In this document: positions 13,964 to 59,955 of the stretch, one piece after another
How the letters are laid out: every line of letters starts with the position of its first letter
How positions within the stretch are numbered: the stretch's first letter is position 1
Assembly (NCBI RefSeq): GCF_036711975.1
Contig: NC_091966.1
Location: 5,587,501-5,651,500, forward strand
Direction of reading: 5' to 3'
Length of the DNA: 64,000 nt
Source of the DNA: Onthophagus taurus
Taxonomy: Eukaryota; Arthropoda; Insecta; Coleoptera; Scarabaeidae
The notes under the pieces: generated by a model
Told to the model about the DNA's origin: nothing
The model's input: only the letters and a program-made list of their open reading frames with translations
Database searches by the model: none
Made by a program: the position numbers and the translations under genes

Positions 13964-15476
13964 CAGCTCTGTTCAGATTTAATGCGAATCGGCCGCTGTT
14001 AGCTCCGACATGCCGCTGGTACTGGAAGAAGACGGAGACATCTTTTGTTTCTATTCAATTCGATTTCTGAGACTAAAGGAAGAGAGTAAAACCCAGGTAA
14101 AACCGTCTCAGTTGGAAGTGGGCCGAAGAATGGAGCACCTTTTTTTAAATGTGTTAATTTTATTTTATTTTAAATCTTTTTTGATATTTTTAAGCACAAC
14201 AAATACACGATTTTTTATATGTTCCTCTAATAAAGTATTTCTATAAATAAAACGTCAGATAAAAGTTATTCATGACCGGGTAGCTGTAAAAAACCCCTAA
14301 TTACGGAGCAATTGGCTACAACACGGTTACGATTTGCCTGTAAATACCTTGAGTATAATTGGGAACCAGTCATCTTCACAGACGAAAAAATCTTCTGTTC
14401 GTCGGACGACCATAAGAAATTACTATGGCGAAGGAATGGAACCCGGTATGATGCTAATCATGTTCAACCCAATACAAGAAGTGGACGCATTTCCTTGGGT
14501 TATTGGGGATTCATGGACCGGGAGAACTGACCGAAATTAAAGGAAGATTTAATTCGATTGAATACATTCGAGTGGTGGAGGATGTTTTGATACCATCAGT
14601 AAGAACCTTGTATCCAGAAGGGATCATCACGATAGTTCAAGACAATTCGCCCGTGCATTCTTCAAGAATTGTTCATGATTGGTTTAACGATCATAATGAG
14701 GTTAGGCGAATACCCTGGCCAGCTTGGTCACCGGATCTAAACCCATTCGAAAATCTATGGGCTTTGGTGGAAAAACAGTTTAATAAAAATACCAACTTTC
14801 TGATAATCTGCGCCGCAACATTACAGTTGTGTGGGAATTGTTTCGCGGTAAGGATGTATGCGAAAGATTAGTAAATTCGATGTCCACCAGATTGCAATGT
14901 TGCGTAGAGAATAATGGATATTATACAAAATACTGATATTTGATGGTATAATGGACTGTATGAAATTCTCCCCAATCAGATTATTATAATATTTATTATA
15001 TTTTATATGTATAATAATATCTTATATTTTTTGTTATATAGGAGTATTATATTTTATTATATTGATTGTTGATTGTTTGATTTTATTACATTAAAATGGT
15101 TTGCGATATATTTCAATATATGTATTGTTTATATATAACTTATTATCAATATATCATTTTCATTTCTTTTGAGGTTCGACTTATCCTTCCACTGTATTAC
15201 CAAAGTAATACAGTAATTATTAGTAATTATTTTCATTTACTACAGGAATTGTGTAAACTAAATGGATTGCTTATACCTATTTATTTTCTTAATTTTTCTT
15301 TGTGATTCAGTCATCTTGGCCATATAAATCACACCACCCCGCTTGCCTGTTCGGAACATTTACAAGACTACAAAGCAGGTAAAACCGAATTGAATGTCTC
15401 GTGAACGTAGGTCGTTTCTAGTACAATTTTATGCCTCTACGAGCGGCTCTTTTCGCATTATATCTGAACAGAACTG
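13964..15476 (+). mobile_element. Tc1-like DNA transposon, inactive, with TA duplication
   Basis: A 1513-bp element bounded by TA at 13962-13963 and 15477-15478. The termini are imperfect inverted repeats of about 35 bases: cagctctgttcagatttaat at the left, and cagttctgttcagatataat as the reverse complement of the right. It carries a broken transposase on the + strand. The target is a gTAcatatggtacac repeat whose uninterrupted paralogue lies at 13228-13260. Confidence 0.92.
14298..14871 (+). pseudogene. Tc1-like transposase remnant, DD35E spacing
   Basis: The DDE transposase part of the enclosing element. The first catalytic Asp sits in V-I-F-T-D-E-K, the second at 14641 in Q-D-N-S-P-V-H, and the Glu at 14749 in S-P-D-L-N-P-F-E-N-L-W. 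The Asp-to-Glu distance leaves 35 residues between them, one more than the classical Tc1 DD34E. A frameshift near 14500-14515 splits the protein, and the N-terminal helix-turn-helix region is not readable, so it is not functional. The A-T-T-R-L-R-F-A start and W-R-R-N-G-T-R-Y motif are family-typical. Confidence 0.88.
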
Positions 15477-23329: not shown

Positions 23330-23760
23330 TGCAGATCATATTGCCAAATTCAGAAAAACAACTTAACGATGTTAACTCTTAAAGTTCTTCGACAAACTAC
23401 TGCACACTTTCAAAACAACAATTACAGCCGTACAAACAGGAAAAGTACAAGACAGTAAGGAACTACAAAAAATTCATGGATGTCAGAAGAAATCTTAGAA
23501 CTGATGAAAACTCGAAAATCTTACAAAACGAAAAATAAAGCGAAATATAAAGAAACGCAGAGAATCATCAGAAGGCACATCAGGAAAGCGAAAGAAGAGA
23601 TGGATGAGATGGATGAACAGCAGATGTGGGAAATTGGAGGACTTAGTAAGAAAACATGACCACTTCAATACATAGAAAAAGGTAAAGGAAGTTACTAATA
23701 TGAAGAAATACTTCACTACAATGACTCTATACTCTATTTTGTAATACGGAGGAGTAAAAT
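23330..23760 (+). mobile_element. Non-LTR retrotransposon fragment (linker before the RT domain)
   Basis: A + strand frame from about 23475 reads S-E-E-I-L-E-L-M-K-T-R-K-S-Y-K ... N-K-A-K-Y-K-E-T-Q-R-I-I-R-R-H-I-R-K-A-K-E-E. This is the basic linker between endonuclease and reverse transcriptase in many arthropod LINEs. It stops at codon level soon after R-K-H-D-H-F-N. Confidence 0.65.
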
Positions 23761-23892: not shown

Positions 23893-24395
23893 ATACTAGA
23901 CTAATACTAGTATTAAAACTAACACTAGAACTAGAAACATTCCGTTTAGCTGTACCTCTCTTAAGACGGCTGGTAGGTAGCGCTAGTTCTAGTTAACATT
24001 AATATATTAATGTTAACGATATTTTATAAAATATCACTATATTGCATAGTTATATTGAACTAAAACTATCACAAGTCCTAGAACTAGAATCATTCGGGTT
24101 TAGCCGTCTTGAGAGACGTGCGGCTAAACCCGAATGTTTCTAGTTCTCGGTCTAGTGTTAGTTCTAGTTTTACACTAGCCCTATCATTAGAACTAACAGA
24201 AGACCTAGAACTAGAATCATTCGGGTTTAGCCGTCTTGAGAGACGTACGGCTAAATGCGAATGTTTCTAGTTCTCGGGCTAGTGTTAGTTCTAGTGGCAG
24301 TGTAGGTAGCGCTAGTTAGCATAAGATATTACTATGTATGTTGTATATTTTTATTGAACTAAAACTAGAGCTAACACTAGACCTAGAATTAGATT
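23893..24395. repeat. Palindromic hairpin family, copies between LINE fragments
   Basis: At least two palindromic units with the cattcgggtttagccgtctt core, plus flanks carrying gtaggtagcgctagttagc and tttttattgaactaaaacta. They sit between the LINE linker (23330-23760) and a LINE C-terminal fragment (24400-24740). Confidence 0.85.
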
Positions 24396-25657: not shown

Positions 25658-28600
25658 ATGCCACAATCCGTTCCAAACGTGATGTTTCAAGTAAGACCTA
25701 ACTTAAATTATATTGAAAAACCCGGAAAAATTATAATTTCCTTCTTAAACACTAAAATTCTGTCAGCTGTCATAGTTCTTTCATGAAAGCACATTAATTA
25801 AAAACGAAATTTAGTGAAAATAATAAAATATGCGTTATTTTCAGAACGCGGTAGAACCGATGCAGGTTGATGCCCCTCCTGAAGACAATGACAATAACGA
25901 AGAAGAGACCTATATTGTTGAAAATCCAACGTTAGATTTGGAAGTGTATGCAAATAGTTATGTGGGGTTAGCAAAATTATACAGACTCATTTACATCATT
26001 GATCATTGCCCATCATTAAGACTTGAAGCTTTAAAAATGGCAATATCATATGTTATGACAACCTTTAATGTAACAATGTATCAAGTACTTCATCAAAAAT
26101 TAGCTGAGGTAACGAGCACAAATGCTTTACCCGATGTTGCGGCCCAATCTACATCTCAAGATATCCCAGTAATGGATACAATGTGGATTGATAATAAATC
26201 AAAAAAGGCTGCTTTAAAATTAGAGAAGTTAGACAATGATTTAAAGAATTCGAAATCAAATTCAATTAAAGAAAGCATCAGAAGAGGTCATGACGATTTA
26301 GGTGATCATTATTTAGATTATGGAGATTTATCGAACGCCCTTAAATGTTATTCCCGATCAAGGGATTATTGTACGAGTGGAAAACATGTTGTAAATATGT
26401 GTTTGAATGTGATTAAAGTATCAGTTTATTTACAAAATTGGTCGCATGTGCTTAGTTATGTTTCTAAAGCTGAAAATACACCAGATTTTTTGGAACCTTC
26501 AACAAAAGATTCTAATCTAATGATTTTGACAAAACTTAAATGTGCAGCGGGATTAGCTGAATTAGCTACAAAAAAATATAAATCGGCCGCAAAACATTTT
26601 TTACAAGCCAATTTAGATCATTGTGATTTCCACGAATTGATGTCCCCAAATAATATCGCAATGTACGGCGGTTTATGTGCTTTAGCAACATTCGATAGAC
26701 ACGAATTACAAAAAAACGTCATCTTTAGTAGTTCATTCAAATTATTTTTGGAATTAGAGCCTCAATTGAGAGATATAATATTTAAATTTTACGAATCAAA
26801 ATACGCTTCATGTTTAAAACTTTTGGATGAAATTAAAGATAATTTATTATTGGATATGTATATCGCCCCTCACGTTAACACTTTGTATACTCAAATAAGA
26901 AACAGGGCTTTAATACAATATTTTAGTCCGTATTTATCGGCGGATATGCGGAAAATGGCCACGGCTTTTAATCGAACCGTTCCTGCTTTAGAAGATGAAT
27001 TAATGCAACTTATTTTGGATGGGCAAATTCAAGCGAGAATCGATTCTCATAATAAGATTTTATTTGCTAAAGATGTCGATCAGAGGAGTACTACTTTCGA
27101 GAAGAGCTTACAAATGGGGAAGGAGTATCAAAGAAGGACGCGTATGTTGATTCTAAGAGCTGCAGTTTTAAAGAATAAAATTCATGTTAAGGTAATTTTT
27201 AAATTAGTTATTACTAGGGCAACCAAAAATATGCTCAAAAAATAATAGTTTAAGCGCTTAAAAAATGCTGTATAAAAATCAAAATATGCTGTTTAAACAT
27301 GAAAATATGCTCTATAAAAAAGAGTCTTTTCCAAATATTCCTATCAAATTTAAAATGTAGTTGTCTTTTAAATCTGTAGGCGAAGTTAAACAAAATAAAG
27401 TAGAAATGATTTCTATTTATATCTCGAGACATTTATTAGTTTGACATGTTTAAACTAAAAGACAATTAGAAAATATTGAACAATATACAAAAGACAAATA
27501 GAAAGAAATAGATAATAAAACAAATACAGATTCAACTTAAATTTTGATTACAATAAATGACAAACATCTCACCTAAATTATCAAAAAGGAAGCTTTGTCT
27601 GTTTGCATGTAAAACATTCTTGTACATTGAAAAACTTCGTTCCACTTCCACTGAAGTTATAGGTGCAAACTTAAATGCTAGTATTTCACTAACAGTGTAT
27701 TTATTGTTTTTATTTCTGTAGATCCTGTACTTAAACATGTAGAAATTTCTTTCAAAATAGAAAAACCATGATTTTTTGAAATACACATATCCATTTTTTT
27801 CTTTACTGGCTTAGCAATTTCACTGTTTATTCCATTAATTAAGTCCTGAGCTTTTGTCACTATATCAACCTGTGCAGAAAGCGAAAGCCCAGTTGTTTCC
27901 AATGTTTTTGTTGACGCACAAAGGAAGCCATAATTTGATGCAATGAAAATCAAATCTGATTTTATTGTATTGTCATTTAGTAAGGCCTTTGAAATTTTGA
28001 TTGACGCAGCGTCCTCTTCGTCTAATGCATCAAACACATTCCTAATTGTTTCGAAATTAGTTGCATAGTACTTTGCCGCTTCAATCCATGTTCCCCAGCG
28101 AGTAGTTACCGGTTGTGGAGGAAGAACAATACTAGGCGCTATTTCCTTAAAAATTGCTACTCTTGATGGCGCTTTTAAAAATACTTTTTTCACATTGGTC
28201 GATGTTAGTGTATGTACCTCGAATTTGCTCACAAACTCTATGAAGTCCGTGTGCAGCACAAGTCAAGTGTGTCACTTTTGGATAAAACGTTTGTATCGCC
28301 TTTGCTGCTTTTACCATATAGGGAGCAGCATCTGATACAAAGAGTAAAATCATATCTCTGTTGAAAGTCTCACCCAAAATCTTAACAGAATCATCGAAAT
28401 GTCTTGCAATAGTGCTATGATTCGCTTTATCAAGCACTGCTGTATTTAACAAAAATTTTTGTTTCGCAATCGACTCATCATTATCCAAAATACCAATGAT
28501 GACATTTGCCACATATCTTCCTGTTGCATCTGTGGTTTCGTCAATTGAGAGCCACAAGAAGCGACCGTTGATACATTTTCGTATGTGTTCTATGGTATTT

Positions 28601-31600
28601 TGGTAAAGTTCCTTAACATACTTTGTGCGAAGAGTAGTTTCAGATGGTACTTTGTACTCTGTGTATGACTCTAGGAACGATACTAATTTTTTGTTACGCA
28701 TTTTATATAGAGGTATATTAGCTGAAATTAGTGCGCTACATAGATCTTCTGCAAATTGAATATCTTTTGATTTGGATGTGGAACATTCAGCAAAAAAAGG
28801 CTGAGTAGTTTTCTTCTCATTATTCTTTTTCTCTAATTCTTGTGTTTTAAACTTGCTAGATGCTGTTTTACCGAGAATATTTTTTCGGCTGACACAGATT
28901 TGTTGCACACTTTGCAAAAAAGTACCTTACCATCAGTTTTGAATACAGGATATTCACGCACATATTGGGATAACTTTCCTGAACTTTTCGAATGTCGATA
29001 ATTTAATATTCTTTAAAGAATTGAATAACTTTATGGTAACTTTATATCAAATTGCAAAATAAAATTTTGAAAATATGCATTAAAAATATTCATTTATTTC
29101 CAAAAATGTTATATAATTTGAAAATATGCAATGTATGCTCGTATAGATAAAATAAGCAAAAATATGCTCTAACAAATACGGCTCAAAATTCATAGATTGG
29201 TTTGAAACAAATTTCTATCTAGTCCATTTTATTCTGGAGGCTATGAAAAAAAAATATACGTTTGCATATTTTTGGTTGCCCTAGTTATTACTAGAGTTTT
29301 TATTGTTAATTAAAAGTTTACAATTTTCTGTACAATACATGACAAACCAAACTTAACTTCCCTTTCATCCCCATTTCCTGTATTCCCTCGCCCCAACCAC
29401 CACCCAAGGTTTATATGTTAAAGGTTGTCTAAGTTCCTATGCTGCAATACTTTGATTTTAGTTTGTGGGCGAGGGGCAAGAACAGGAGTGTTTCGTGACG
29501 TATAGTTCATTTTTTTTCTATAATACCTGCCAAATTGTTGTAAAGTTGGCAAAATTACCAGGGAGTTTTATTTTATCATGTTTTGAAGTAAATATGTTTG
29601 AGCTTTCGTTATTCAAAATTGCATAAAAAATGTTGTGGGGTGTTTATTTGCCATTTATTTACCTAGAAAAGGTGTTTTGTTCTATTTAATTACTTTGTAG
29701 CACGTTTTTACAACAAACATGTACTTCGTTAAAATCGTATTTATCTAAAAATTTATTAGTATTTTAACCTCAACTATTTAGTTACTGAAAATGTTACTAA
29801 AATCAGGAAAACAACATAAATTTTATAAGGGTCTTAGATAATACCAACAGAAACCCTAAAAAATTTACATTGACAAGTATTATAGAAAAAAAACGAACTA
29901 TAAGTAGGGATGCAACATCGCTCATAAAAACATCGATGTTTTCCAAAAGTGAAACATCGATGTCGAAAACATCGACGTATTATACCGATACATCGATGTT
30001 TAAAAAAAATATTCAGTGGCTGAATTTTTATTATCATAATAATCAATAATATTTGGACCGCGTTCTGCATCACTTGGCTAAGCGACAAATAATAATAATA
30101 ATAACTTTATTATCATAAATTTAATCACTAAAACTAGAATGATGACGATTTGTGTAAAAATTTTTGAAGAAAATAATCTAGAGTTTGATTTTGTACTTTT
30201 AAACTGGTTTTTATTTTATATAGAATTTCAGTCTAATTTTACAAATAGATTAACATCTCTCATCTTATCCATTTTACAAACAAGTTTCTTAATATTACTT
30301 TTTGTTTTGTTAAAAAAGATCACATATTAATGTCGAAATCAGATTATTAGTTACTAATTTACAAAATTAAAGTTTAAAAAGTTGTAAAATGAAACTAAGG
30401 ACGAAGTGTTACAAGTTTACAGATTAAAATTTAAGAACGCTCTTTTTTAACGAAGGAGATATTAAGAAACTTGGGAAAAATTCAAGAATCATCATATGGC
30501 TTAAAAATCGACGACTTTTTTTTAATCAATGTGAAATGACCCAAAAAACACGTTAAAAATATAAAGAAAGTGCGGAAAAGTGACTAACACTAGATTAACT
30601 TCAGTTATAAAACTTCTATTACATGATAATTAAGTTCAGGTTTAAAATGTCAACCTCACTTTTGACATATTTGTAATCTTCATTAAAAATCCTTTAAAAT
30701 GAGTGCAAACACGACATATTTATCTTCAATATTAATGAAGTTATGGTCAACTTCCGGTTAAGAATGTCAATTTTGACATATTTGTAATCGTCGTGAAAAA
30801 TCCTTTAAAATGAGTCCAAACATGTTATATTTAATTGCAATATTAATCGAGATATAAGCAACTTCCGCTTGGAAATGTCAATGTCATTTTGACATATTCA
30901 TAATTTTTATAAAATGTCTTAATATTTGTCACAAAAACAAAAGTATAATAAAAAATTAAGGTTGGTATTAATATTTAAAAATTAAATTACTATCTTTATT
31001 GTTGCTAACTTAGGGTTTAATGTTTTTTATTCTAACTTTTTTGTTTTTTTAGATAAGTGCGTCATCTTTGGACTCATTTTAAAGGTTTTTTAAGGAAGAT
31101 GACAAAGATGTCAAAATTGAAGTTGACGTTTCAAACCGGAAGTGATTACATTTCCATTAATATTAAAGTTAAATATGTCGAGTTTGGACTCATTTTAAAG
31201 GATTTTTTATGAAGTTGACAATTATGTCAAAATTGAAAGTTCGAATTTTTTGGTTTTTTGAGATAAATGTGTCATGTTTGGACTCACTTTAAACGTAATA
31301 ATAAAATTAAAGTTGACATTGACAACTGAAAGTTTTTTTCACGACTAAACCCGAATGTTTCTAGTTCTCATTCTAGTTTTAGTTCAATAAAAACATACAA
31401 CATAGTAATATCTTATGCTAATTAGCGCTACCTACCACTACCATACCAACCATAACTCGAAAACTGTCAATGTTATCAAAATTTTCAAAGAATAAAAGTT
31501 TCTAAAATAAATTTCTATTAAATAGTACAAAAATAAATGTAGGGTTACGAGCGAACAAAAAAGTTATGTACTTTTGTGTGAAATTGAGGTTTATTGCTTT

Positions 31601-32409: not shown

Positions 32410-35400
32410 TTATTTCTCCTTTTGCTGATTTAACAAATCATCTATTTGAGATTTATACATTTCTTTAATATCTACCAAATCTAATTTCAATTCTTCCGTT
32501 TCCTCAACCTTTTCCCCATACAATTGACATAATGTTTCGTACTGTTGCGTTAATTCATCGAATTGCGTTTGCAACGAATCGTGTTTTATTACTTTCCCCT
32601 CTAATTGTTCAACTTTTGATATTAAACTAGATATTTCTTTATTGAGAAGCGTCCTTTCGTGTTCTCGCCTCTTTAACTCCCAATGTAACTGTTGAACTTC
32701 GCCGTCTTTTTGTTTCAAACTCGTTTGAATGTATTGCATTTCTAACATATTCGTACATCGACTTGACGTTGATGTTTCAAACACATCATCCTAAATCAAA
32801 TTAATTAAATTATTTAAATAATCTAAATACAACAATTTCTTTAACACTTACAGGTAACCATAAAGAACTTGAAATCGATTCCGATATCGACATACTTGGA
32901 GATAAACTACGAGGTGGAACGATTTGACTTGCCGCTTGCTTTTCCTCTTGAATCGTTTCAGATTTTTCATCATCATTTGAAATTCGATCAATTTGTTGCA
33001 AATTGTTTTGAAGCGATGAAATTTCTTTTCGAAGATTTTCAACGAGCTCCCTTTCGGTTTTAAGAGTTGTTTGAAAAATATCGATTTCGCTACGAAAAAG
33101 GATTTGATTAATACATTTTGAATAAGAAAGTGGGAAATTTACTTCTTTAATTTTTGCTGATTTAATATGTACTCAGTTTCCTTTTGGTCGAATTGGACGG
33201 CGGCCAAATCTTTTTCACGCTTTATATCTGATAATTTTAATTCTGCTTCGGTTAATCTAGCTTTGAATGATACAGAATCTTCGCGCGCTATTCGTTCTAA
33301 ATCTGTTAATGTTCTTAGTTTGGTTTGTAAATCATCTAAAAAATTAATTAATTAATTAAGTATGAAGGTTTTCACGACTCGTGTTAATTAAACTAAAACT
33401 AACACTAACTCTAGACGTGGAACTAGAAACATTCGGCTAAACCTAAATGATTCTAGTTCTAAGACTAGTATTAGTTCTACTATTAGTTCAATAAAAATGA
33501 ACCACAATCTAGTATTGAATAACAGGTAAAACTAGAACTAACACTAGACCTCGAACTAGAAAGTTTCGGGTTTAGCCGTCTTAAGAGACGTGCGGCTAAA
33601 TCCGAATGTTTCTAGTTCTAGGTCTAGTGTTAGTTCTAGTTTTGCACTATCACTAGAACTAACACAAAAGCTAAAACTAGAATCATTCGGGTTTAGCCGT
33701 CTTGAGAGACGTGCGGCTAAATCCAAATGTTTCTAGTTCTCGGTTTAGTGTTAGTTCTAGTTTTACACTATCACTAGAACTAACACAAAACCTAGAACTA
33801 GAATCATTCGGGTTTAGCCGTCTTGAGAGACGTGCGGCTAAACCCGAATGTTTCTAGTTCTAGGTTAGCGGTTCTCAAACTTATATCCTTGCGTACCACT
33901 AAGGCTATTTTAAAAATCAGGTAAGTACCACTGAACAAAAAAAAACAATAATGATAATGCAAATATAAACTGTTTTGCGTACCACTTGAGAACTTCTCGC
34001 GTACCATCAGTGGTACGCGTACCATAGTTTGATAACCACTGTTCTAGGTCTTGTGGTAGTTCTAGTGATAGTGTTAGTTTAAAACTAGACCTAGAACTAG
34101 AATCATTCGGGTTTAGCCGTCTTGAGAGACGTGCGGCTAAATCCGAATGTGTCTAGTTCTCGGTCTAGTGTTAGTTCTAGTTTTGCACTATCACTAGAAC
34201 TAACACAAAACCTAGAACTAGAATCATTCGGGTTTAGCCGTCTTGAGAGACGTGCGGCTAAACCCGAATGTTTCTAGTTCTAGGTATAGTGTTAGTTCTA
34301 GTTTTACACTAGCACTGTTACTAGTACTAACATTAGACCTAGAATTAGAAACATTCCTACTAGACTCGGCATACAAGGTATACACGAAGATACTGCTGGG
34401 AAGACTGGAAGAGGAGATGGAGTGGGGGGGGAATTTTGCCGGATGGACAGGCAGGCTTTCAGAAGGGAAGGGGAGCAATCGACAACGTGTACGTGTTGAA
34501 GCATCTGGCAGATAGAGAGCTGGATAAGAAGGGAGGGAAATTGTACGCCCTGTTTATAGATTTGAAGGCGGCTTTTGATAAGGTGGATAGGGGGAAGTTG
34601 TGGGAGGAGGGGGATCACGGAACACCTAATTACGAGAGTGAAGGAAATATACATGGAGACTATGGCTAGGATAAAAGTGGAAGATAAGTTGAGCGACGTG
34701 TTCTGGACGACGAAGGGACTGAGGCAGGGATGTCCGCTGAGCCCAAGTCTATTTGCACTGTATTCGGCGGACCTGGAAGATAGATTGGGGAAGGGGCAGA
34801 TGGGAGGGTTGGTGGTGGGAGGTAGAAAGGTGCATATGTTAGCATACGCGGATGACATCGTGGTCATGGCGAGAGAAGCGGCGGAGATGAAGGATATGAT
34901 AAAGACATTGGAAAGATATTTTAGGGGGAAGGGGCTGGAAGTGAATGTGGGGAAGACAAGGATGATGAAGTTTTGTAAGGGTGGGAGAAAAAGAACAGAA
35001 AACTGGAGATGGGAAGGAAAAGAGATCGAGGAGGTTAGGGAGTATACTTACTTGGGGTATGTGTTTAGGGAGGACAACAGGGAGGGGTCGCATGTGATAG
35101 CTATGGCAAAAAAGGCGAATAAGGTGATGGGACAAGTATGGGGTTGGGGGAAGAGAGTCTTTGGAAGGAATGTGGCAGCGAGGAAGATTATGTTTGAAGG
35201 TCTGGTTAGCAGTGTGATGATGTATGGGGATGGAGAGAGCAGGGAATGGTGGAGGACGTGCAAACTAGATATTGGAGATGGGTGCTTGGGGTGGCGAGAG
35301 AAACACCGGGGTATATAATGAGGGAAGAGGTAAAGGTGGATAAGGTCAGAGTGGAGGCAGGCAGGAGGGCAGTGAAATATGAAGAAAGAATAGAAGGGAG

Positions 35401-38400
35401 ACCAAACTGCGGGATCTTGGAGGAGTGTTGGAGGGAAATTAGAGAGGGAAAAGTCAGATATGGGAAAGGAGACAGAGACAACTATTATAGACGAGCGGGC
35501 TACTCAGTAACTGAGATAAACAGTAGACGAAGGGAGATGTGGAGGGAGTTGAGAGATAGGGATCGAGATGTGCAGAGGCAGGAAAGAAGGACACAAATAA
35601 AAGAGGGAAGGTATAACGAAAGGTACAGGGACATAATTACGGAGGGGCTGCCTAGATACTTATTATTGGAAGGAGATGAGCAAGGAAAGAAGTTGGTGAC
35701 TAAGTTCCGTTGTGGAAACGAGGAGAGAGCTAACAGAAACTGGATGGCCGATGAGGAGAGGTGGTGTAGGCTATGCAGGGAGGAATGGGTGAATGGGCAG
35801 TGAGTTGAGGGAGGAGGAGTTGGACCCAGGGCAGATCTTAGGAGAGGGGGGAGAGGGGAAACGATGGATCAGAATGGTTGTGGAGGTGAGGAGACAAAGG
35901 GAATAACAACTAAAACTGGAACTAACACTAGCATTACAATTAACACTAGACCTAGAACTAGAAACATTCGGGTTTAGTTGTCTTAAGAGACGCATGGCTA
36001 AACCCGAATGTTTCTAGTTCTATATTTAGTGTTAGTTCTAGTTCTAACGTTAGTTCTAGTTTTATTTGAATAAATTCTTATTTAATGAATTAATTAACGT
36101 ACTAATTTTAACGATAGAATTTTGTTCCATCTGTTCAAAATTGGCAATTTTAACATTATAAGTCGCTTGTAACGATTCAAGTTGTCGCACCAAAGGTTTC
36201 CCAACTTCCATAACCGATTGCGCAAGTTCTTCATTTCTTCTTTCAGCGTCCTCTAATCGCCTCAATAATTCGTTAATTTCAGTTCTCATAGTATGTTCTT
36301 TCCTTAAAAAATTTTCTTCGCCATCGCGTAATTTACTCCTTAAATCTTCTAATTGACCGATAATCTCTTCGTTTTGACTCTCTGTCATACGCTTTTCATT
36401 TTCTAAACTTTGTAAAAGTTGTTCGCGCGCAATTAATTCGTTGCTAGTACGATTTTTGTCGCCTAATTCCTTTTTGGCTGCGTCCAAAGATTTTTTAACC
36501 GTATCAAATTTTTGATTTAAATCGTCGAAATTATCTTTGGTTGTTTCTAATTCGGTTTCTAACTTTTTGTTTTTTGTTGTTAGTTGATGTACGGCTTCGA
36601 TTTGACTACGTTCGACTTCTTCTTTAGCTGTTAAAGATCGTTTTAATCGATCAACTTCGCCGGTTAAATCCTCAACGGTTTCTTTAAAATATTTTATTGA
36701 ATTTTCGTGTTCTTTTTCTTTAGCACGTAGTTTTTTGATTATGTTTGAATGTTGTAATTGTTGTTTGGATAATTTTTCGCCTTCCTCTCGCAACTCTTTA
36801 ATTATTTCATCTTTCTCCGCTACTAACGTATCGATTTCGCTTTTTGTTAATCGCGAAGTGGCATCTTTTTTACATTCATCTAATTGCTTCCGTAACGAAT
36901 CTTTTTCTCTTATCGCTTGTTGGAATTTCTTTTCTAAAGCTGATAAACGCCGCGCGTATTCATCTGTTACTTGGGATAAATCTAAACATTCTAATTGTTT
37001 CGTATGAATTGTATCTAATTGCGAGCGTAATTCTTCGTTTGATTCTTGTAATTCAGCATTTTTCCTACTAACCTCGATTAATTTTGCTTCTCGTGATTCT
37101 AAAATTTCGGTTACTTCCGATATTCGTCTCGCTAATCTTTCCATTTCGGAGTCTTCGCTGATACTTGATGCTTCAGAAAGCTCCCGATTGTGGCCTTTGT
37201 TTCTTTTAAAAGTCATTTTTCCTAGAAGTGAGTCTACATTTGGTTCTACTGATTTTCCTTTAACACATATTAATTTTGCTGGACTATGTCTGCTGTGGGT
37301 GCTACTTGAATCACCACCATTTGGACTCGAAATTATTTCTATATCTGAAGAGGTTGTTGTTTCTAATTCGTCTCCAGAAGTGTGACCGGATGCTTGATCT
37401 GAACCGATTTTTACCATATCCGATCGTTCAGAACTTAATGGGGATAACTCTCGAGTTGAAACCTAAAGAAAAAATTAACAGATTATAAAAAACATTTTAA
37501 AACATCATAATTTGGGTTGCATATCCGCTTAACACGTTCGCTACCGGCGCGGAGTCCAGTCTAATAGACGGAAAGGTTTTTCGTGGTGAGCCGCGTTCAA
37601 TTTACTCGACGCGTCTAATGACGACGCGTCCTAATGTATTTAAATTTGGTTATAAATAAATTCGATTTTTTCGAATTTATATTCGAAATTTTAGAATAAA
37701 TTCAGTTATTTGGCTGACTTATCACAACGATTCGGGCCCTTCTACTGATGATGAAATAAACTCAAATGGTTCTACACCTCCTGCTACAGCAGCTTTGCAG
37801 TCTGAATCTGATAATGAGTCGGATTGATTCACTGGCGAATACGCCTTAAATTTAGGCAGTATGTTGTAAACAAGAGGCATAAGTAAAGAATAAAGCTGTA
37901 TGAGCTTACCCCATTTGATGGTTTTGTTTTGAATATACTTGTCTGTACTGGAAAAGGCACTATAATTGACAATGATCAAGAGCATTCCCATACGTTTACA
38001 GTCATAACAGAGTTACTAAAAGATTATTTGGGTAAAGGGCATGAAATATACCTTGATAATTATTACACTAGTAAAATATTTGTTCAAAAGGAAGACGAAA
38101 CTTGTAGGAATTTTGCGAAAATTTAGAAAGGGAAATCCGAAACAATTATTTCAAGAAAAATTAAGAAAGAGAAGCTGTATGGGAAAAAAAAGGTCCAGTG
38201 TTTGTTACACACTGGAAGGACAAGAGATTGGTGACTATGTTTTCTACAATACATAAACACCGAATGGCAACGAATAGAACAGGAAAACAAGTAATAAAAC
38301 CATACTGCGTTCTCGCCTACAATAAGTACATACATGTTCGGAATAGACAGATCAGACCAGATGATGGGATACTACTCATCGCCAAGAAAAACCATAAGAT

Positions 38401-45090: not shown

Positions 45091-47965
45091 GTAAATGATT
45101 TTTTGAGGTTATAAAAGAATAAGGTCTAAGAAAATGAAAGATGAGGTTCGTTTTCTCCTAAACCGCTCTAGATTACGCAATGAAACTTTATCCTGTTATT
45201 AAAGACTGTTTGATGTTGTGGTATGCCAAATTTAAACTTTCCAGTGTGGGCAGCTTTTTTAATAAAGATTTTAAAAGATGAGTAATTTTTGACATTTCTA
45301 AAAATGAGGTTAAAGTAAAACATCATTTTCTCTTAAACTGTTCTAGATTGAGCAATGAAACTTTGTCCTGATATTAAAGACTGTTTGATGTTGTGGTATG
45401 CCAAATTTAAACTTTCCAGTATGAGCAGCTTTCTTAATAAAAATTTTATAACATGAGTAATTTTTGACATTTCTAAAAATTCGGTTTCAGAAAAAGATCA
45501 TTTACTCTTAATCTGTTCTAAATAACCAATGAAACTTTGTCCTGTTATTAAAGACTGTTTGATATTGTGGTATGCCAAATTTAAAGTTTCCTGTATGAGC
45601 GGCTTTTTTAATAAAGATTTTAAAAGATGAGTTATTTTTAACATTTCTAAAAATGAGGTTAAAGAAAAATATCATTTTCTCCTAAACTGTTCCAGATTAA
45701 GCAATGAAACTTTGCCCTGTTATTAAAGACTGTTTGATGTTGTGGTATGCCAAATTTAAACTTTCCAGTATGAGCAGCTTTTTTAATAAAGATTTTAAAA
45801 GATCAGTAATTTTTGACATTTCTAAAAATGAGGTTAAAGAAAATCATAATTTTCTCCTAAACTGTTCTAGATTAAGAAATAAAATTTTGTCCTGTTTTTA
45901 AGGACTGTTTGATGTTGGGGTACGCCAAATTTAAAATTTCCAGTATGAGCAGCTTTTTTAATAAAGATTTTAAAAGATGAGTCTTTTTTGACATTTCTAA
46001 AAATGAGGTTAAAGAAAAACATCATTTTCTCCTAAACTGTTCTAGATTAAGCAATGAAACTTTGCCCTGTTATTAAAGACTGTTTGATGTTGTGGTATGC
46101 CAAATTTAAAGTTTCCAGTATGAGCAGCTTTTTTAATAAAAATTTTAAAAGATGAGTAATTTTTGACATTTCTAAAAATGAGCTTAAAGAAAAAGATCAT
46201 TTTCTCCTAAACTATTCTAGATTAAGCATTGAAACTTTGCCCTGTTATTAAAGACTGTTTGATATTGTGGTATGCCAAATTTAAACTTTCCAGTATGAGC
46301 AGCTTTTTTAATAAGGATTTTAAAAGATGAGTAATTTTTAACATTCATTTCTAAAAATGAGCTTAAAGAAAAATATCATTTTCTCCTAAACTGTTCTAGA
46401 TTAAGTAATGAAACTTTGCCCTGTTATTAAAGACTGTTTGATGTTGTGGTATGCCAAATTTAAAGTTTCCAGTATAAGCAGGTTTTTTAATAAAGATTTT
46501 AAAAGATGAGTTATTTGTGACATTTCTAAAAATGAGGTTAAAGAAAAACATCATTTTCTCCTAAACTGTTCTAGATTAAGCAATGAAACTTTGCCCTGTT
46601 ATTAAAGACTGTTTATGTTGTGGTATGCCAAATTTAAACTTTCCAGTATGAGCAGCTTTTTTAATAAAGATTTTAAAAGATGAGTAATTTTTGACATTTC
46701 TAAAAATGAGGTTAAAGAAAAACATCATTTTCTCCTAAACTATTCTCGATTAAGCAATGAAACTTTGCCCTGTTATTAAAGACTGTTTGATGTTGTGGTA
46801 TGCCAAATTTAAACTTTCCAGTATGAGCAGCTTTTTTAATAAAGATTTTAAAAGATGAGTTATTTTTGACATTTCTAAAAATGAGGTTAAAGAAAAACAT
46901 CATTTTCTCCTAAACTGTTCTACACTAAGCAATGAAACTTTGCCCTGTTATTAAAGACTGTTTGATGTTGGGGTATGCCAAATTTAAAGTTTCCAGTATG
47001 AGCAGCTTTTTTAATAAAGATTTTAAAAAATGAGTAATTTTTGACATTTCTAAAAATGAGGTTAAAGAAAAATATCATTTTCTCCTAAACTGTTCTAGAT
47101 TAAGCAATGAAAGTTTGCCCTGTTATTAAAGACTGTTTGATGTTGTGGTATGCCAAATTTAAAGTTTCCAGTATGAGCAGCTTTTTTAATAAAGATTTTA
47201 AAAAATGAGTAATTTTTGACATTTCTAAAAATTAGGTTAAAGAAAAACATCATTTTCTCCTAAACTGTTCTAGAATAAGCAATGAAACTTTGTCCCGTTA
47301 TTAAAGACGGTTTGATGTTGAGGTATGCCAAATTTAAAGCTTCCAGTATACAGCAGCTTTTTAATAAAGATTTTAAACGATTAGTACTTTTTGACATTTC
47401 TAAAAATGAGGTTTAATAAAAAGATCATTTTCTCCTAAACTGTTCTAGATTAATAAATGAAACTTCGTGTTGTTATAAAAAAGTGTTTGATGTTGGGGTA
47501 TACCAAATTTAAAATTTCTAATGTAGATAGTTTTTTTAATAAAGATTTTAAAAGGTGACTAATATTTGACATTTCTGAAAATGAGGGTCAAGAAAATAAT
47601 CATTTTCTCCTAAACTGTTCTAGATTAAGAAACAAAACTTAGACCTGTTATAAAAGACTTATTGAAGTTAGGATATACCAACTTTGAAGTTTCCAATGTA
47701 AACAGTTTATTCAATAAAGGTTTTAAAACATTATGAAGTTCAAGAAAATAATAATTTTCTCCTAAACTGTTCTAGATCAAACAATGAAACTTTGTCCTAG
47801 TATAAAAGAGTGGTTGATGTTTTAGTATACCAAATTGACAGTTTCCAGTGTGTAATTTCTGACGATTCTAAAAAAGTCATTTTCTCCTAAACTGTTTTAA
47901 AGTAATACATTAAAATTTGTCCTATTCTATTACAAAAGAGTCTTCAAAATTAGGGTACCAACTTT
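45091..47965. repeat. 175-bp tandem satellite, about 16 monomers
   Basis: The landmark ctagatta recurs at about 45171, 45346, 45521, 45695, 45870, 46045, 46220, 46399, 46574, 46748, 46923, 47098, 47273, 47448, 47623 and 47775. That is a period of 174-175 bases, with one 179 and one 152. Monomers contain gcaatgaaactttgccctgt, ggtatgccaaatttaaa and gagcagcttttttaataaa. Central monomers are the most alike; both ends are decayed, as expected of unequal exchange. Confidence 0.96.
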
Positions 47966-48631: not shown

Positions 48632-51600
48632 TTAATCTTCTCGCAAGATTTCCATAAAAGCTGGATCTCTTCTTTGAAGACATTCCAACCACTCCGTCAT
48701 TGTAATCCCTCGATCGTTGTTTTTATCACAATATCTAGGTAATTTTTTTCCGCATCTTCTAAGACTCCGAACGGCCGCTATGGTATCTTTAAAAAACTTC
48801 CACTCGTGTTTTTCAAATATCTTATTTTTGTTTTTATCGAATATTACGAAACTCCAAGACGCTACTTGTTCTTCTTTCGTTGTATTCCAAGCCGGTCTGT
48901 TTGCACTAAAATTATTTAAATGAAAAATATAGTGAATTTTACTTAAAATGCAATATACAAAAATATATTTATATAGAAACCAGGTACGCTCGGGTTACTT
49001 ACTTTGTAACACATAAAATGACAACAAACATATCTGAATGTTTCTAGTTCTAGGTCTAGTGTTAGTTCTAGTTTTGCACTATCACTAGAACTAACACAAG
49101 ACCTAGAACTAGAATCATTCGGGTTTAGCCGTTTGAGAGATGTGTGGCTAAATTTGAATGTTTCTAGTTTTCGGTTTAGTGTTAGTTCTAGTTGTACACT
49201 AGCACTAGAACTAACACAAGACCTAGAACTAGAAACATTCGGGTTTAGCCGCACGTCTCTCAAGACGGCTAAACCCGAATGATTCTAGTTCTAGGTCTTG
49301 TGGTAGTTCTAGTGATAGTGCTAGTTTAAAACTGGTAGTTCTAGTGATAGTGCTAGTTTAAAACTAGAACTAACACTAGACCTAGAACTAGAATCATTCG
49401 GGTTTAGCCGTCTTGAGAGACGTGCGGCTAAATCCGAATGTTTCTAGTTCTCGGTCTAGTGTTAGTTCTAGTTTTGCGCGATCACTAGAACTAACACAAG
49501 ACCTAGAACTAGAATCATTCGGGTTTAGCCGTCTTGAGAGACGTGCGGCTAAATCCGAATGTTTCTAGTTCTCGGTCTAGTGTTAGTTCTAGTTTTGCGC
49601 GATCACTAGAACTAACACAAGACCTAGAACTAGAATCATTCGGGTTTAGCCCTCTTGAGAGACGTGCGGCTAAATACGAATGTTTCTAGTTCTCGGTCTA
49701 GTGTTAGTTCTAGTTTTACACTATCACTAGAACTAACACAAGACCTAGAACTAGAATCATTCGGCTTTAGCCGTCTTAAGAGACGTGCGGCTAAATCCGA
49801 ATGTTTCTAGTTCTCGTCTAGTGTTAGTTCTAGTTTTGCACTATCACTAATACTAACACAAGACCAAGAACTAGAATCATTCGGGTTTAGCCGTCTTGAG
49901 AGACGTGCGGCTAAATCCGAATGTTTCTAGTTCTCGGTCTAGTGTTAGTTCTAGTTTTGCGGGATCACTAGAACTAACACAAGACCTAGAACTAGAATCA
50001 TTCGGGTTTAGCCGTCTTGAGAGACGTGCGGCTAAATCCGAATGTTTCTAGTTCTCGGTCTAGTGTTAGTTCTAGTTTTGCGGGATCACTAGAACTACCA
50101 CAAGACCTAGAACTAGAATCATTCGAGTTTAGCCCTCTTGAGAGACGTGCGGCTAAATGCGAATGTTTCTAGTTCTCGGTCTAGTGTTAGTTCTAGTTTT
50201 ACACTATCACTAGAACCAACACAAGACCTAGAACTAGAATCATTCGGGTTTAGCCGTCTTGGGAGACGTGTGGCTAAATCCGAATGTTTCTAGTTCTCGG
50301 TCTAGTGTTAGTTCTAGTTTTGCGGGATCACTAGAACTACCACAAGACCTAGAACTAGAATCATTCGGGTTTAGCCCTCTTGAGAGACGTGCGGCTAAAT
50401 ACGAATGTTTCTAGTTCTCGATCTAGTGTTAGTTCTAGTTTTACACTATCACTAGAACTAACACAAGACCTAGAACTAGAATCATTCGGGTTTAGCCGTC
50501 TTGAGAGGCGTGCGGCTAAACCCGAATGTTTCTAGTTCTAGGTCTTGTGGTAGATCTAGTGATAGTGCTAGTTTAAAACTAGAACTAATACTAGACCTAG
50601 AACTAAAATCATTCGGGTTTAGCCGTCTTGAGAGACGTGCGGCTAAATCCGAATGTTTCTAGTTCTCGGTCTAGTGTTAGTTCTAGTTTTGCGGGATCAC
50701 TAGAACTAACACAAGACCTAGAACTAGAATCATTCGGGTTTAGCCGTCTTGAGAGACGTGTGGCTAAATTCGAATGTTTCTAGTTTTCGGTCTAGTGTTA
50801 GTTCTAGTTTTACACTAGCACTAGAACTAACACAAGACCTAGAACTAGAATCATTCGGGTTTAGCTGTCTTGAGAGACGTGCGGCTAAATCCGAATGTTT
50901 CTAGTTCTCGGTCTAGTGTTAGTTCTAGTTTTGCGGGATCACTAGAACCAACACAAGACCTAGAACTAGAATCATTCGGGTTTAGCCGTCTTGAGAGACG
51001 TGCGGCTAAACCCGAATGTTTCTAGTTCTAAGTCTTGTGGTAGTTCTAGTGATAGTGCTAGTTAAAAACTAGAACTAACACTAGACATAGAACTAGAATC
51101 ATTCGGGTTTAGCCGTCTTGAGAGACGTGCGGCTAAATCCGAATGTTTCTAGTTCTCGGTCTAGTGTTAGTTCTAGTTTTGCGGGATCACTAGAACTAAC
51201 ACAAGACCTAGAACTAGAATCATTCGGGTTTAGCCGTCTTGAGAGACGTGTGGCTAAATTCGAATGTTTCTAGTTTTCGGTCTAGTGTTAGTCCTAGTTT
51301 TACACTAGCACTAGAACTAACACAAGACCTAGAACTAGAATCATTCGGGTTTAGCCCTCTTGAGAGACGTGCGGCTAAATCCGAATGTTCCTAGTTCTCG
51401 GTCTAGTGTTAGTTCTAGTTTTGCGGGATTACTAGAACTAACACAAAACCTAGAACTAGAAACATTCGGGTTTAGCCGTCTTGAGAGACGTGCAGCTAAA
51501 TCCGAATGTTTCTAGTTCTCGGTCTAGTGTTAGTTCTAGTTTTGCGGGATCACTAGAACTAACACAAGACCTAGAACTAGAAACATTCGGGTTTAGCCGC

Positions 51601-53302
51601 ACGTCTCTCAAGACGGCTAAACCCGAATGATTCTAGTTCTAGGTCTTGTGGTAGTTCTAGTGATAGTGCTAGTTTAAAACTAGAACTAACACTAGACCTA
51701 GAACTAGAATTAATAAAGACCACTAGAGGTCGAGAGGGATGCGATAAGCGGCAATAAAAAAACTACAAATACTCGCCAAATAATAAAATAAAGAGAAATT
51801 AAAAGTAATTACCTTGCTATACTTGATCCGTTTAATTCTCGATCCATTTTATCGTGAAGAAACCGAATTAACCCCCTTAAAAATTCTTTTTTTCGATCTT
51901 CCGGGCATCCTTTAAGAATACCAATAGGAGGCGCGATTTGATCGCATTTTGGGGTTGCGTTTAAAACTGTCGTTCCAGCAATAGTTTTTCCAGTATCTTC
52001 ATGGACACACCAACAGTAACCGGTCGATTTGTAACATTGTATTTTTTGATACCTCCCATCGCTCGTACATTCAGGAACGTACAAATCATTTTTGCTGTGT
52101 TCGTTGCTCATTTCGCTTAATGCCGTTTGACGATCGCTTCTACAATCGACGGCATCTTCATCGGAAGGTTCTGAAGATTCTTCATCTGGTATAAATGGCT
52201 TTAAAACTGTTTGTAAAAAAAAGAAATGATTACATAACGTGTTAGGTGTTATAATTAAGATTGGTACCACTTAAATTTAGATTTAATTACCGTATGGTGG
52301 TGTTAAAGTAGAAGAAGGTGTTGTGATGAGATCTTCTCTGTCGCTATCTCCCGAGGATGTGTTATCGGATCCTGGACTGCCGTCTACCCGCAGCAACAAG
52401 AACAGACGCAAAAAAACTATTTAAGTTCAAAACATGGTAAAAGCGTGCATTGGGCCAAGTTAAAGAAATATTAATTTAATCGCAACCACACACCAAGAAA
52501 AAAGAGAAAAAAAAGGTGACCAATATCGTCAAAGAAAAAACGTTTACCACTTACCGTCTCTTCCATCCTTAGTAAGACAATCAGCCCATTCTTCTCTCCC
52601 AATAAGTTGATCCCGATTCATATCACAAGCTTTAGCAAAACTTTTAGCACAACGTTTCGGCTTGACGGCTTTCTTAACGATTTTTTTCAAATCCCTGTAT
52701 TCGGTTTTATCTAATTGGTCATCGTTATTCCGATCCATTTGTTTAAATTTCCAATCTAAAACCGTTCTAAAATCGTCATCCGTCGACGACGACGACGTCG
52801 ACGTTCCTTTTCCTCCATCTCGATTCCACTCCGTTTGGAAGATTTTAATCAAATTCAAATTAAACTTGGCTTTATCCTCCCGTTTACACGGTTGATTCAA
52901 TCTCCTTCCGTTCCTCGACGACGATCTCCGTTTGTTGTTCTTCTTCTTTCGGGCGCATGTTTGTTTTTGTTCCGGCGAATATTGAGACATCGTATAATCT
53001 AATGGGACCCCGTGACTGTTTACGCACCAACAATAACCCAAAATGCTGCTGCATTGTCCAGATGCGTAGTTTCCATCGGCCCGACAATGCGGATTTAATA
53101 TACTATTCGGGGAGGTTTTATTGTATTCTGTACATGGAGTATGTGTGCGACATGGCCCTTTATTTAATTGTGTTAACGTTTTGTCGTAACATTGTGCTAA
53201 TTGTAATATGCACTTATTTGGATATGTAAAGCTGTCTGATCCGCATACTGGTCTTACACTTTGTATACTTGCTCGACATGAATCCGCCGTACATCCAAAA
53301 CC
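48632..53302 (-). CDS. SMOC / pentagone-type secreted modular calcium-binding protein, 5' exon(s) missing
   Basis: A matricellular protein; insect relatives (magu/pentagone) bind glypicans and modulate BMP spread. Exons in reading order: 53302-52555, 52383-52291, 52206-51813 and 48905-48632; phases close over 502 codons plus stop. Domains: Kazal-like (P-V-C-G-S-D-S-F-T-Y-P-N-K-C), thyroglobulin type-1 (H-C-R-A-D-G-N-Y ... G-Y-C-W-C-V), an EF-hand-like pair (D-R-N-N-D-D-Q-L-D and D-M-N-R-D-Q-L-I), a second thyroglobulin type-1 (C-T-S-D-G-R-Y ... G-Y-C-W-C-V), and a SPARC-type EC domain with EF loops (D-K-N-K-N-K-I-F, D-K-N-N-D-R-G-I-T). The first visible exon starts after ttctcaag at 53303; the signal peptide exon was not found. 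The extra EF-like pair between the two thyroglobulin domains is unusual for SMOC. Confidence 0.9.
49022..51712. repeat. Tandem array of ~120-bp palindromes in a SMOC intron, about 22 units
   Basis: Each unit is an imperfect palindrome. The outer arms are actagaactaacac/gtgttagttctagt, the middle arms are ctagaactagaa/tttctagttct, the inner arms are cattcgggtttagccg/cggctaaatccgaatg, and a gtct-tgag-agac tip closes it. The period is 119-121 bases across 2.7 kb (for example 49484 and 49605). Most units share one orientation, but those near 49228 and 51590 are flipped. A shared flank (gtggtagttctagtgatagtgctagtttaaaac) appears near both ends and inside. Confidence 0.95.
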
Positions 53303-53479
53303 CTTGAGAAAAAAAAAAGATTTTATTATTTTATGATTTCATGAACTTTGAAGAGAAGATAGTTTCATTATTAGAAACTCTTCTTTAACAATAAGAGTTC
53401 AGAAAGAGATTTTTTTTCTGTAATAATAATTGTTAAGGTCATATTTTTAATGTTTCTGTTGGTATTAGTTAGATTCTTA
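53303..53479. other. Intron upstream of the first visible SMOC exon
   Basis: Starts (on the minus strand, ends) with a polypyrimidine run and AAG acceptor. No feature. Confidence 0.4.
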
Positions 53480-57659: not shown

Positions 57660-57825
57660 AATTATAATATTGCAAAAATGTCGTATTTCAAAATGATATA
57701 TCAATATAAAATAAAAATGAAAACTAGGGCGTACCTACTTAATTTGTCTCACATAATATGCAACGTGTCTGAAGTTAAAACGTTAGTGTTGTATATTGCA
57801 TATTTTTATTGAACGATACATTAAG
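57660..57825. other. Spacer between the mariner-like element and palindromic repeats
   Basis: AT-rich, no feature. Confidence 0.3.
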
Positions 57826-58455
57826 GTTTAGCCGTGCGTCATCAGACTGCTAAACCCAATACTTTCTAGTTCTAGGTCTAGTGTTAGTTCTAGTTTTACA
57901 CTAGCACTATCACTAGAACTAACCCAAGACCTAGAACTAAAATCATTCGGGTTTAGCCGTCTTAAGAGACGTGCGGCTAAACCCGAATGTTTCTAGTTCT
58001 AAGTCTAATTTTAGTTCTAGTGACAGTGGTAAGTAGCGCTAGTTAGCATAAGATATCACCATGTTGCATATTTTTATTGCACTAAAACTAGAACTATCAA
58101 AAGAACAAACACAATACCTATAACTAGAATTATTCGGGTTTAGCCGTCTTGAGAGACGTGTGGCTAAATCCGAATGTTTCTAGTTCTCGGTCTAGTGTTA
58201 GTTTTAGTATTGCGCTAGCACTATCTTTAGAACTAATACAAGACCTAGAACTAGAATCATTCGGGCTTAGTCGTCTTGAGAGACGTGCAGCTAATCCCGA
58301 ATTCTTCTAATTTCAAGTCTAGTGTTAGTTCAAGTTTTAATTGTTATTCAACGTTAGGTTGTGATATATTTTTATGGAACGAAAAGTTGAACTAACACTA
58401 GACTTAGTTCCAGAAACATTCGGGTTTAGTGGTAGGTCTCTTAAAACGGCCGAAA
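57826..58455. repeat. Palindromic hairpin family, right-hand cluster
   Basis: Three palindromic units separated by flanks gtagcgctagttagcataag and attgttattcaacgttaggtt, the latter also present in part near 33515 and 23890. These flanks suggest that the palindrome is the core of a longer element. Confidence 0.85.
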
Positions 58456-58534
58456 ACTCAGGGTTATCATAAGGTCACCTTTTTCCAAGCAAAACTTTTC
58501 CTTTGCAAAACTACCCAATGCTTGTAGTATTAAG

Positions 58535-59676
58535 CAGAGCTGGGCAATAGTTAACTACAAAAGTAGTTAACTACTTTTTGTGTAAAAGTAATTGTATTCT
58601 AATTACTTTCGTTCTATTAGCAGTTATACTCGATTATTTTATGCTGGCATAAAATATTCACAGAAAGTAGTTAACTCCTCATTGTTAACTACTATACTTT
58701 AGGTATTCTAACTATTTTTGTTTATTTTAATTCCTTTGAAGTAATTTAACTACTTTTTAAGACAGTTTAAGTACTTCCAAATATCTAGTATGTACAGTCA
58801 GAAAAAAAAGATATGCGTCGACTTTCGTTCGCATAGGCTGTATATGGGATTTTGTGTAATTTGGACGGCCTATACGAAAAAACGTCGATGAATCTCTTTT
58901 TTTTTCTGGCTGTACTTAAGTACACATTTCATTCAACACACTAAACCTAAATAAAATTATGCACTAGGCAAGACACGTCTCCGTCTCCGAGTTGACCAAT
59001 AAGAATTATGATAAATAGAATTATGATAAATACAAAAAACCATCCGAATCAGAAAAAGATGTAGTAAGAAATAAATCGGAGTTAGAGTTATTACAGTACT
59101 TGGAACATAGAAGAACTAATAAAGAAATGCTCCATGATTATAAGTTAATTAAGCAAGTATTTATAAAATACAACACCAACTTACCATCATCAGCTTCAGT
59201 TGAACGGATGTTCAATTTTGCAACCTTGCTTAATTCATCAAGAAGACATGCTATCACTGACAATCTTTTGGAGTAATTGTTTTTTTAACAGCAAACTTAA
59301 CTTAAATTGAAAGTCGCTTTCAAAGTTACAAGATTCTACGTTTATTTGTTTATTATATTTTATATTTTTTAAACAACTTAAAGTTTTTAAATAATCTTAA
59401 TACCTACCTCATAAGTTTCAATTTTATGTTTTTGTACCAAATGAATCTGACTTTTAAACATAATTTATGTATACATTTATGCAGTTATATACTATAACTG
59501 CATTTTTGCAGTTATAGTTAAAAAAGTAGTTAGATATTTAACTACTAACTACTTGGGAGTTAGTAATCTCAGTACCATATTTAAAAAATAGTTTAACTAC
59601 CAAGTAGTTAAACTACTTTTTCGTGAAAGTAGTTAGTAGTTATACTCCACTACTTTTTTCAAGTTGCCCAGCTCTG
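58535..59676 (+). mobile_element. hAT transposon remnant with cagagctgggcaa ends
   Basis: A 1142-bp element with perfect 13-base terminal inverted repeats (cagagctgggcaa) and near-identical 8-bp flanks gtattaag/ctattaag. Subterminal regions repeat gtagttaactac-type words many times. Near 59140-59275 the + strand reads N-T-N-L-P-S-S-A-S-V-E-R-M-F-N-F-A, the C-terminal dimerisation motif of hAT transposases; the catalytic part has been deleted. A mariner-type MITE is nested inside. Confidence 0.92.
58795..58912. mobile_element. 118-bp mariner-type MITE nested in the hAT element
   Basis: Flanked by TA (58793-58794 and 58913-58914). The arms cagtcagaaaaaaaagatat ... and the reverse complement of ...agagattcatcgacgtt-type sequence pair along almost the whole length. 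No coding capacity. Confidence 0.88.
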
Positions 59677-59955
59677 CTATTAAGCTATGTTGCATTTTAT
59701 GTGGGACAGTGCAAGTTCATACTAGTTTCGTAACTATGGTTACTGCATTCATATATTGCGAGTTATATGAAATTCCCGGTATAAATGATATTAGGAGTAA
59801 AATTATGAGTTTAAGAACTTTTGTTCCACGATGTAAATTAATTAATCAAAATTAAATGAAATTTTTTAGGTACTAAAAAAAAATAAGAAAAAATGCTAAG
59901 ACTGTGAGGAGGGGAGAAGAAGTAAAGAAAACAAAAATAAAATAGGGCCTCCCCG
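59677..59955. other. Gene-free DNA
   Basis: No supportable feature. Confidence 0.3.

Follow-up and report, generated by a model that had tools for sequence, protein, structure and literature searches.

How did a regular run of palindromes come to fill most of an intron of a SMOC-type gene in Onthophagus taurus, and is it peculiar to that gene? The question arises in a 64,000-nucleotide stretch of contig NC_091966.1 (hereafter the window), in which an earlier reading of the sequence alone (the sequence-only reading) had described about 22 near-perfect palindromic units in tandem, regularly spaced at 119–121 bases and unusual in that regularity. Our analysis indicates that the array is very probably a transposon-borne dispersed satellite, the unit of which would have been captured, amplified and spread by MITE-like carriers.

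Structure of the SMOC array

The coding stretches that flank the array on the minus strand contain SPARC_Ca_bdg (48632–48994) and Thyroglobulin_1 (51809–52270) domains, and an additional coding stretch (52544–53338) has Kazal, thyroglobulin and SPARC domains, a combination that fits a gene of the SMOC type. The intronic position that had been proposed for the array agrees with these flanking domains and with splice sites at 51812 (GT) and 48906 (AG), the reading phase being judged by eye (Table 1). A second, unrelated tandem array lies beside a SMOC coding stretch (45151–47728; 175-bp unit, 14.7 copies).

Table 1. Positions in the window of the SMOC intron, the palindromic array, its flanks and other copies of the unit
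Feature	Position	Strand	Remarks
Unit cluster	23903..24393	.	C-type left end at 23730
Unit fragment	31341..31385	.	same ~121-bp unit as SMOC array
Two unit clusters	33395..34356	.	33395–33865 and 34041–34356
Single unit	35935..36043	+	past non-LTR retrotransposon fragment
Downstream SMOC exon sequence, SPARC_Ca_bdg	48632..48905	-	low end is ORF end, exon end unmapped
SMOC intron	48906..51812	-	2,907 bp; array is 92.5%; splice sites and phase judged from the sequence
Left terminal inverted repeat, family B	48930..48957	+	2 mismatches; TA just before; 23 bp upstream of acceptor
Left arm of family B transposon to array junction	48930..49034	+	similar copies genome-wide
Near-palindromic array	49022..51712	.	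21 complete ~121-bp units and partial units at ends
Flipped unit, left array end	49203..49333	-	131 bp, identical to 51551–51681
32-bp tandem duplication within array	49301..49365	.	lies within the 159-bp step
Higher-order repeat, two 490-bp blocks of four units each	50578..51557	+	460/490 positions identical
Flipped unit, right array end	51551..51681	-	131 bp, identical to 49203–49333
Different, lower-copy repeat right of array	51736..51808	+	35 matches including itself
Upstream SMOC exon sequence, Thyroglobulin_1	51813..52270	-	high end is ORF end, exon start unmapped
Unit cluster in family B/D element	57815..58450	.	B arm from 57690, D arm to 59779

The extent of the array and its organization in tandem palindromic units were as described earlier, with 21 complete units and partial ones at its ends in place of the approximately 22 counted. 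Nineteen of the complete palindrome cores are forward and two, the second (49241–49276) and the last (51589–51624), are reversed, in line with the observation that some units are flipped. Tandem Repeats Finder reported a period of 121 with 19.3 copies at 49363–51710 and a separate call at 49035–49251. The spacing is less even than had been stated: the 20 core-to-core steps measure 121 bp in 15 cases and 120 bp in two, but also 127 bp (two) and 159 bp (one). Expansion of the array is visible in its higher-order period of 490 bp and in the identical 131-bp blocks at its two ends.

Tandem palindromes are difficult to assemble, and the sequence-only reading had itself named an assembly artefact as grounds for refutation. 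Judged on the assembly only, the differences between units, the higher-order pattern and comparable arrays at many other sites all speak against an artefact, which we consider scarcely credible. The number of units assembled in the SMOC intron may be off even if the array is real.

Palindrome quality and folding

Near-perfect palindromes, as previously described, were not found: the 58-base arms of each unit are only 71–88% identical (mean 80%), with 44–53 pairs per unit. The consensus stem comprises three successive helices (14, 5 and 10 pairs) and a final stretch toward the tip, with single mismatches between. With complementarity between the arms of only about 80%, and with mismatches regularly placed, the persistence of such long palindromes, presented earlier as a puzzle, is a weaker one than claimed. 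The capacity to form hairpins on either strand was confirmed. RNA folds of four units gave z scores of −13.2, −13.0, −14.8 and −11.5, corresponding to long hairpins, and two DNA folds gave −13.8 and −14.1, none of 200 shuffles being as good in any of the six cases.

Left arms compared across units of the SMOC array are 91% alike, in contrast to the 80% identity of the two arms within a unit, which indicates that the arms diverged more than the units did. Arm-to-arm identity was 0.803 inside a unit and 0.800 across different units; the two arms of a unit thus resemble each other no more than they resemble those of other units, which argues against ongoing arm-to-arm conversion inside units. Covariation was calculated from 295 full-length units of 41 sources (the window, L009–L028 and L041–L060), loci L029–L040 and units with fewer than 100 aligned positions having been dropped. 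Cells changed on both sides of a pair numbered 69 (53.2 expected) and one-sided changes 1,246, and 31 compensated double changes were counted (mean of 200 shuffles 19.7, sd 4.1, maximum 31; slid controls 9–22). Compensatory change was weakly above chance, and this slight excess may stem from relatedness among the units alone. Maintenance of the hairpin by selection was not accepted, given the weakness of the compensated excess in these 295 units.

Dispersal of the unit through the genome

A genome-wide search with the unit sequence, a check that the sequence-only reading had suggested, revealed a dispersed repeat family. With at most 3 mismatches, a 24-base core had 15,297 matches in the 291-Mb genome (7,632 and 7,665 by strand), and a 30-mer from the unit had 11,348 with at most 2 mismatches; the reversed-pattern controls gave 0 for both. 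The array in the SMOC intron is one copy among thousands and no special locus, contrary to the view of it as an unusual one-off. Unit clusters were present in all 20 of the fetched 8-kb loci, with main clusters of 0.3–2.9 kb; since these loci were chosen as best matches, they are no random sample and provide no estimate of the usual array size. For comparison with classical satellite DNA, which forms heterochromatic arrays of many kilobases, the arrays in these loci, drawn without regard to heterochromatin, measure at most 2.9 kb. Another 20 loci of 1 kb, chosen by exact core match, each contained one to several units, and the same ~121-bp unit occurs at six further sites within the window (Table 1). 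An exact 22-base core had 0 matches in viral contigs, a result that says nothing on animal genomes. Six consecutive copies of TCAGG, the tenebrionid-type telomere repeat, likewise had 0 matches.

This dispersal bears on the proposal that the locus encodes hairpin RNA, in which Dicer would make siRNAs from the intronic hairpins, acting on the repeat family or on a gene. The strong, tandemly arranged hairpins of a single predicted transcript would suit such a function, transcription being inferred solely from the position in the SMOC intron, and a precedent is given by the tandem hairpins of hp-CG4068 in Drosophila (PMC10317233). However, a single locus or a few would be expected rather than 15,297 core matches; with thousands of dispersed copies, the SMOC array has no special claim to be a hairpin-RNA locus, and the weak covariation also weighs against this explanation, which we regard as quite improbable. 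A role of the array in hairpin-derived small RNAs or RNA editing, as had been suggested, is possible, the single indirect indication, from compensatory change, being weak.

Some copies have a more complex setting. At one locus (L022, 6363–8001), palindromic units lie within a larger repeat that recurs at about 700 bp, with nearly identical flanks. In the window, a 175-bp non-palindromic stretch with near-inverted ends of its own (seen by eye) lies between two clusters at 33866–34040, and a non-LTR retrotransposon fragment (RVT_1; 34360–35900) separates palindrome clusters. The family of this fragment is a high-copy one (734 candidates, 40 scored); targeting of the repeats by the non-LTR element was rejected, palindromes being found near only two (L034 and L036) of its 11 other copies (L030–L040).

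Carrier transposons

Transposons were identified as carriers of the unit from terminal repeats and from joints. Convincing terminal-repeat pairs were found in six of the 29 array stretches tested (L010, L011, L017, L018, L024 and L025), and the carriers with paired ends are non-autonomous DNA transposons, their terminal inverted repeats enclosing the array. In four of them, which belong to family C (ends TACTCTATTTTTTAATTCGGAGGAGT), matching terminal repeats of 23–30 bp occur on both sides; these elements measure about 3.1 kb (L011), 3.0 kb (L017), 1.4 kb (L024) and 2.9 kb (L025) and differ in their number of units. The array is central in C elements, and the short terminal repeats lie outside it, without recognised unit sequence. 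Terminal repeats unrelated to those of C were present in L018 (43 bp) and L010 (about 159 bp). The remaining 23 stretches, including the SMOC array, had no convincing pair (≤700 bp), 20 having none and three weak AT-rich ones; arrays lacking recognisable ends therefore form the majority of the tested sample.

The architecture of the C elements is informative about another potential vehicle, a Foldback or Helentron element that holds its repeats in long terminal inverted repeats, as in Tetris, or at its centre, as in Cg_HINE. Both are known to spread tandem arrays (PMC4079207, PMC7492417). Nevertheless, the central arrays of family C, with terminal repeats of only 23–30 bp outside them, contradict a Foldback structure for that family, and the pairing of those terminal inverted repeats speaks against a Helitron or Helentron. 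Helitron-type elements, Helentrons included, are not known to have paired terminal inverted repeats, and such repeats on the present carriers set them apart from Cg_HINE. We consider an origin of this kind very improbable overall; the contradiction applies to family C, and bare arrays may still have such an origin.

Other recurrent ends adjoin the arrays. Family A is defined by a pogo-like end (CAGTAAAACCTCGATATAACGG; for example, L041, L055 and L058), with a degenerate left partner end seen only by eye in L058. Family B has the end CAGTGAATTTCACTTAAAATGCAATATA, to which a candidate partner end, D, was paired by eye; an element in the window (57690–59779) carries one arm of each. The dinucleotide TA, a candidate target-site duplication, was present immediately outside A ends in 7 of 8 cases, B ends in 4 of 5, C ends in 4 of 9 and D ends in 1 of 3, and on both sides of L025. 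Genes of the pogo-type DDE_1 class are plentiful (1,691 candidates, 150 scored). Ends A, B, C and D were sought at two fetched DDE_1 loci (L067 and L068) and none was found; a tie between pogo-type transposase and the carriers was accordingly not supported. The window also includes a DDE_3 transposase-domain remnant (14458–14871), around which long inverted repeats occur within 3 kb of sequence, and two minus-strand reading frames resembling a broken hAT-type transposase (27678–28926), one with a DUF659 domain and the other with no Pfam match.

The joint between the B arm and the array had 225 matches genome-wide (122 and 103 by strand) and that between the C arm and the array 108 (57 and 51), with 0 in the controls. 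Such identical joints between carrier and array at approximately 225 and 108 places imply that the arrays move as cargo, and since the B and C joints lie at different points of the unit, each would reflect a separate acquisition event or rearrangement. On contig C4 of G000 (1946635–2507346), the B joint is matched exactly eight times on one strand, at intervals of about 55–150 kb, which suggests a large repeated segment there.

The SMOC array itself is joined on its left to a family B arm. A search with this arm gave 631 candidates, of which 40 were scored and all 40 matched, the best at 82–86% identity. On the right flank, where the array stops at 51710, a B or D right end was looked for and none was recognised; about half of the alignments of the different repeat that follows (Table 1) begin at its query base 32. 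We read the SMOC copy as an old, right-truncated B element in which the array expanded in place.

An apparent pool of units common to several carriers

To compare units among carriers, 118 units from 21 loci were labelled by the analyst (A 6, B 37, C 55, E 8 and F 12), leaving 177 of the 295 unlabelled, in a sample biased by the choice of loci. Distances between units were 0.089 for the same carrier and 0.092 for different carriers, a difference reached by 139 of 500 label permutations, and the nearest unit from another locus shared the carrier in 11 of 118 cases as against 30.5 expected. Units do not sort by carrier, and the carriers therefore appear to have a single repeat pool in common. 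Either the arrays were exchanged among carriers, or they spread so recently and quickly that no carrier signal was left.

Three or more recurrent kinds of end sequence, and two others, adjoin the same unit. These five or more kinds of end, together with the absence of clustering by carrier, would also be consistent with a palindromic unit that is a miniature transposon itself, inserted independently and then amplified, with the carriers merely its landing sites; the unit is, moreover, a long inverted repeat, and lone or few units adjoin varied sequence. On the other hand, inspection of the 20 one-kilobase loci and of array ends, made without statistics, found no constant unit edge, and the many copies of B and C joints at distinct points of the unit better fit single captures followed by movement of the carrier. 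We therefore consider independent insertion of the unit unlikely. The variety of ends and the lack of grouping by carrier would likewise fit an array that is a portable cassette: through cruciform extrusion and breakage it may recombine with arrays elsewhere and thereby move among unrelated transposon families, an idea that we put forward as speculative and rather doubtful.

Origin of the SMOC array

Under the transposon-borne satellite explanation, the near-palindromic unit of about 121 bp would have been captured by small non-autonomous MITE-like DNA transposons with short terminal inverted repeats, several of which have TA at their flanks, in the manner of the Tc1/mariner/pogo group. Tandem amplification within the carriers would have proceeded via unequal exchange and conversion, and transposition of the carriers, presumably driven by a transposase, would have scattered the arrays through the genome. 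The SMOC copy would have arrived with a family B element, and later growth of its array would have come to occupy most of the intron. Weighing against this account are the 23 of 29 tested stretches without a convincing terminal-repeat pair, the failure to recognise a right end of the SMOC copy, the presence of TA at only 4 of 9 C ends, and the absence of carrier ends from both fetched DDE_1 loci.

Comparison with known systems

The nearest known kind of element is the MITE with tandem repeats that seed dispersed satellites, of which the present family would be a variant with a near-palindromic monomer and several inverted-repeat families. In Xenopus, miDNA4 is a Tc1/mariner MITE with a captured satellite (Scalvenzi and Pollet 2014; PMC12628747); much as we propose here, a small TA-type transposon carries a captured tandem repeat, either a single monomer or an array whose length varies, and arrays without ends can arise from the carrier (PMC12628747). 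The present monomer differs from that of miDNA4 in being near-palindromic and in its occurrence in three or more carrier families, the ends of which differ. Short, satellite-like dispersed arrays are also the central cargo of Cg_HINE Helentrons of Crassostrea gigas (PMC7492417), and one array type occurs across different Helitron elements (PMC12628747). In Drosophila virilis, tandem repeats inside the transposon Tetris seed satellites, and partial or bare arrays occur alongside complete elements, as in our sample; however, the repeats of Tetris, of about 220 bp, sit in long terminal inverted repeats, whereas short repeats bracket a central array here, and the term "palindrom" was not found in that paper (PMC4079207).

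The hairpin locus hp-CG4068, of which D. melanogaster has 20 tandem copies and D. simulans 9, resembles the SMOC array in having several hairpins in tandem per transcript, its copy number being labile (PMC10317233). Unlike that single locus, with its Dicer-2-dependent siRNAs (PMC10317233), the present repeat is dispersed and known here from DNA. In molluscs, satellites have been described as meeting other sequence abruptly, in one case always inside a palindrome (PMC5139131). Our search of the literature on palindromic and transposon-borne satellites and on MITEs, to which subscription papers were mostly external, recognised no description of this unit family.

Implications

By default, we ascribe no host function to the array and regard the hairpin as a by-product. 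If the transposon-borne explanation is right, insertion and growth of the array would have placed an extended stretch of double-stranded RNA structure in the SMOC intron, beside the splice acceptor, and the shared cassette would make up at least about 1.8 Mb of the genome (15,297 × 121 bp, one unit per core being assumed). Should arrays also pass among carriers as a cassette, each transposon family would gain a new interior and the array many vehicles. Under the transposon-borne explanation, the family would offer a tractable case of satellite DNA spreading in euchromatin and introns; its many scattered, imperfect palindromes would serve as a natural set with which to study how such structures are tolerated by a genome.
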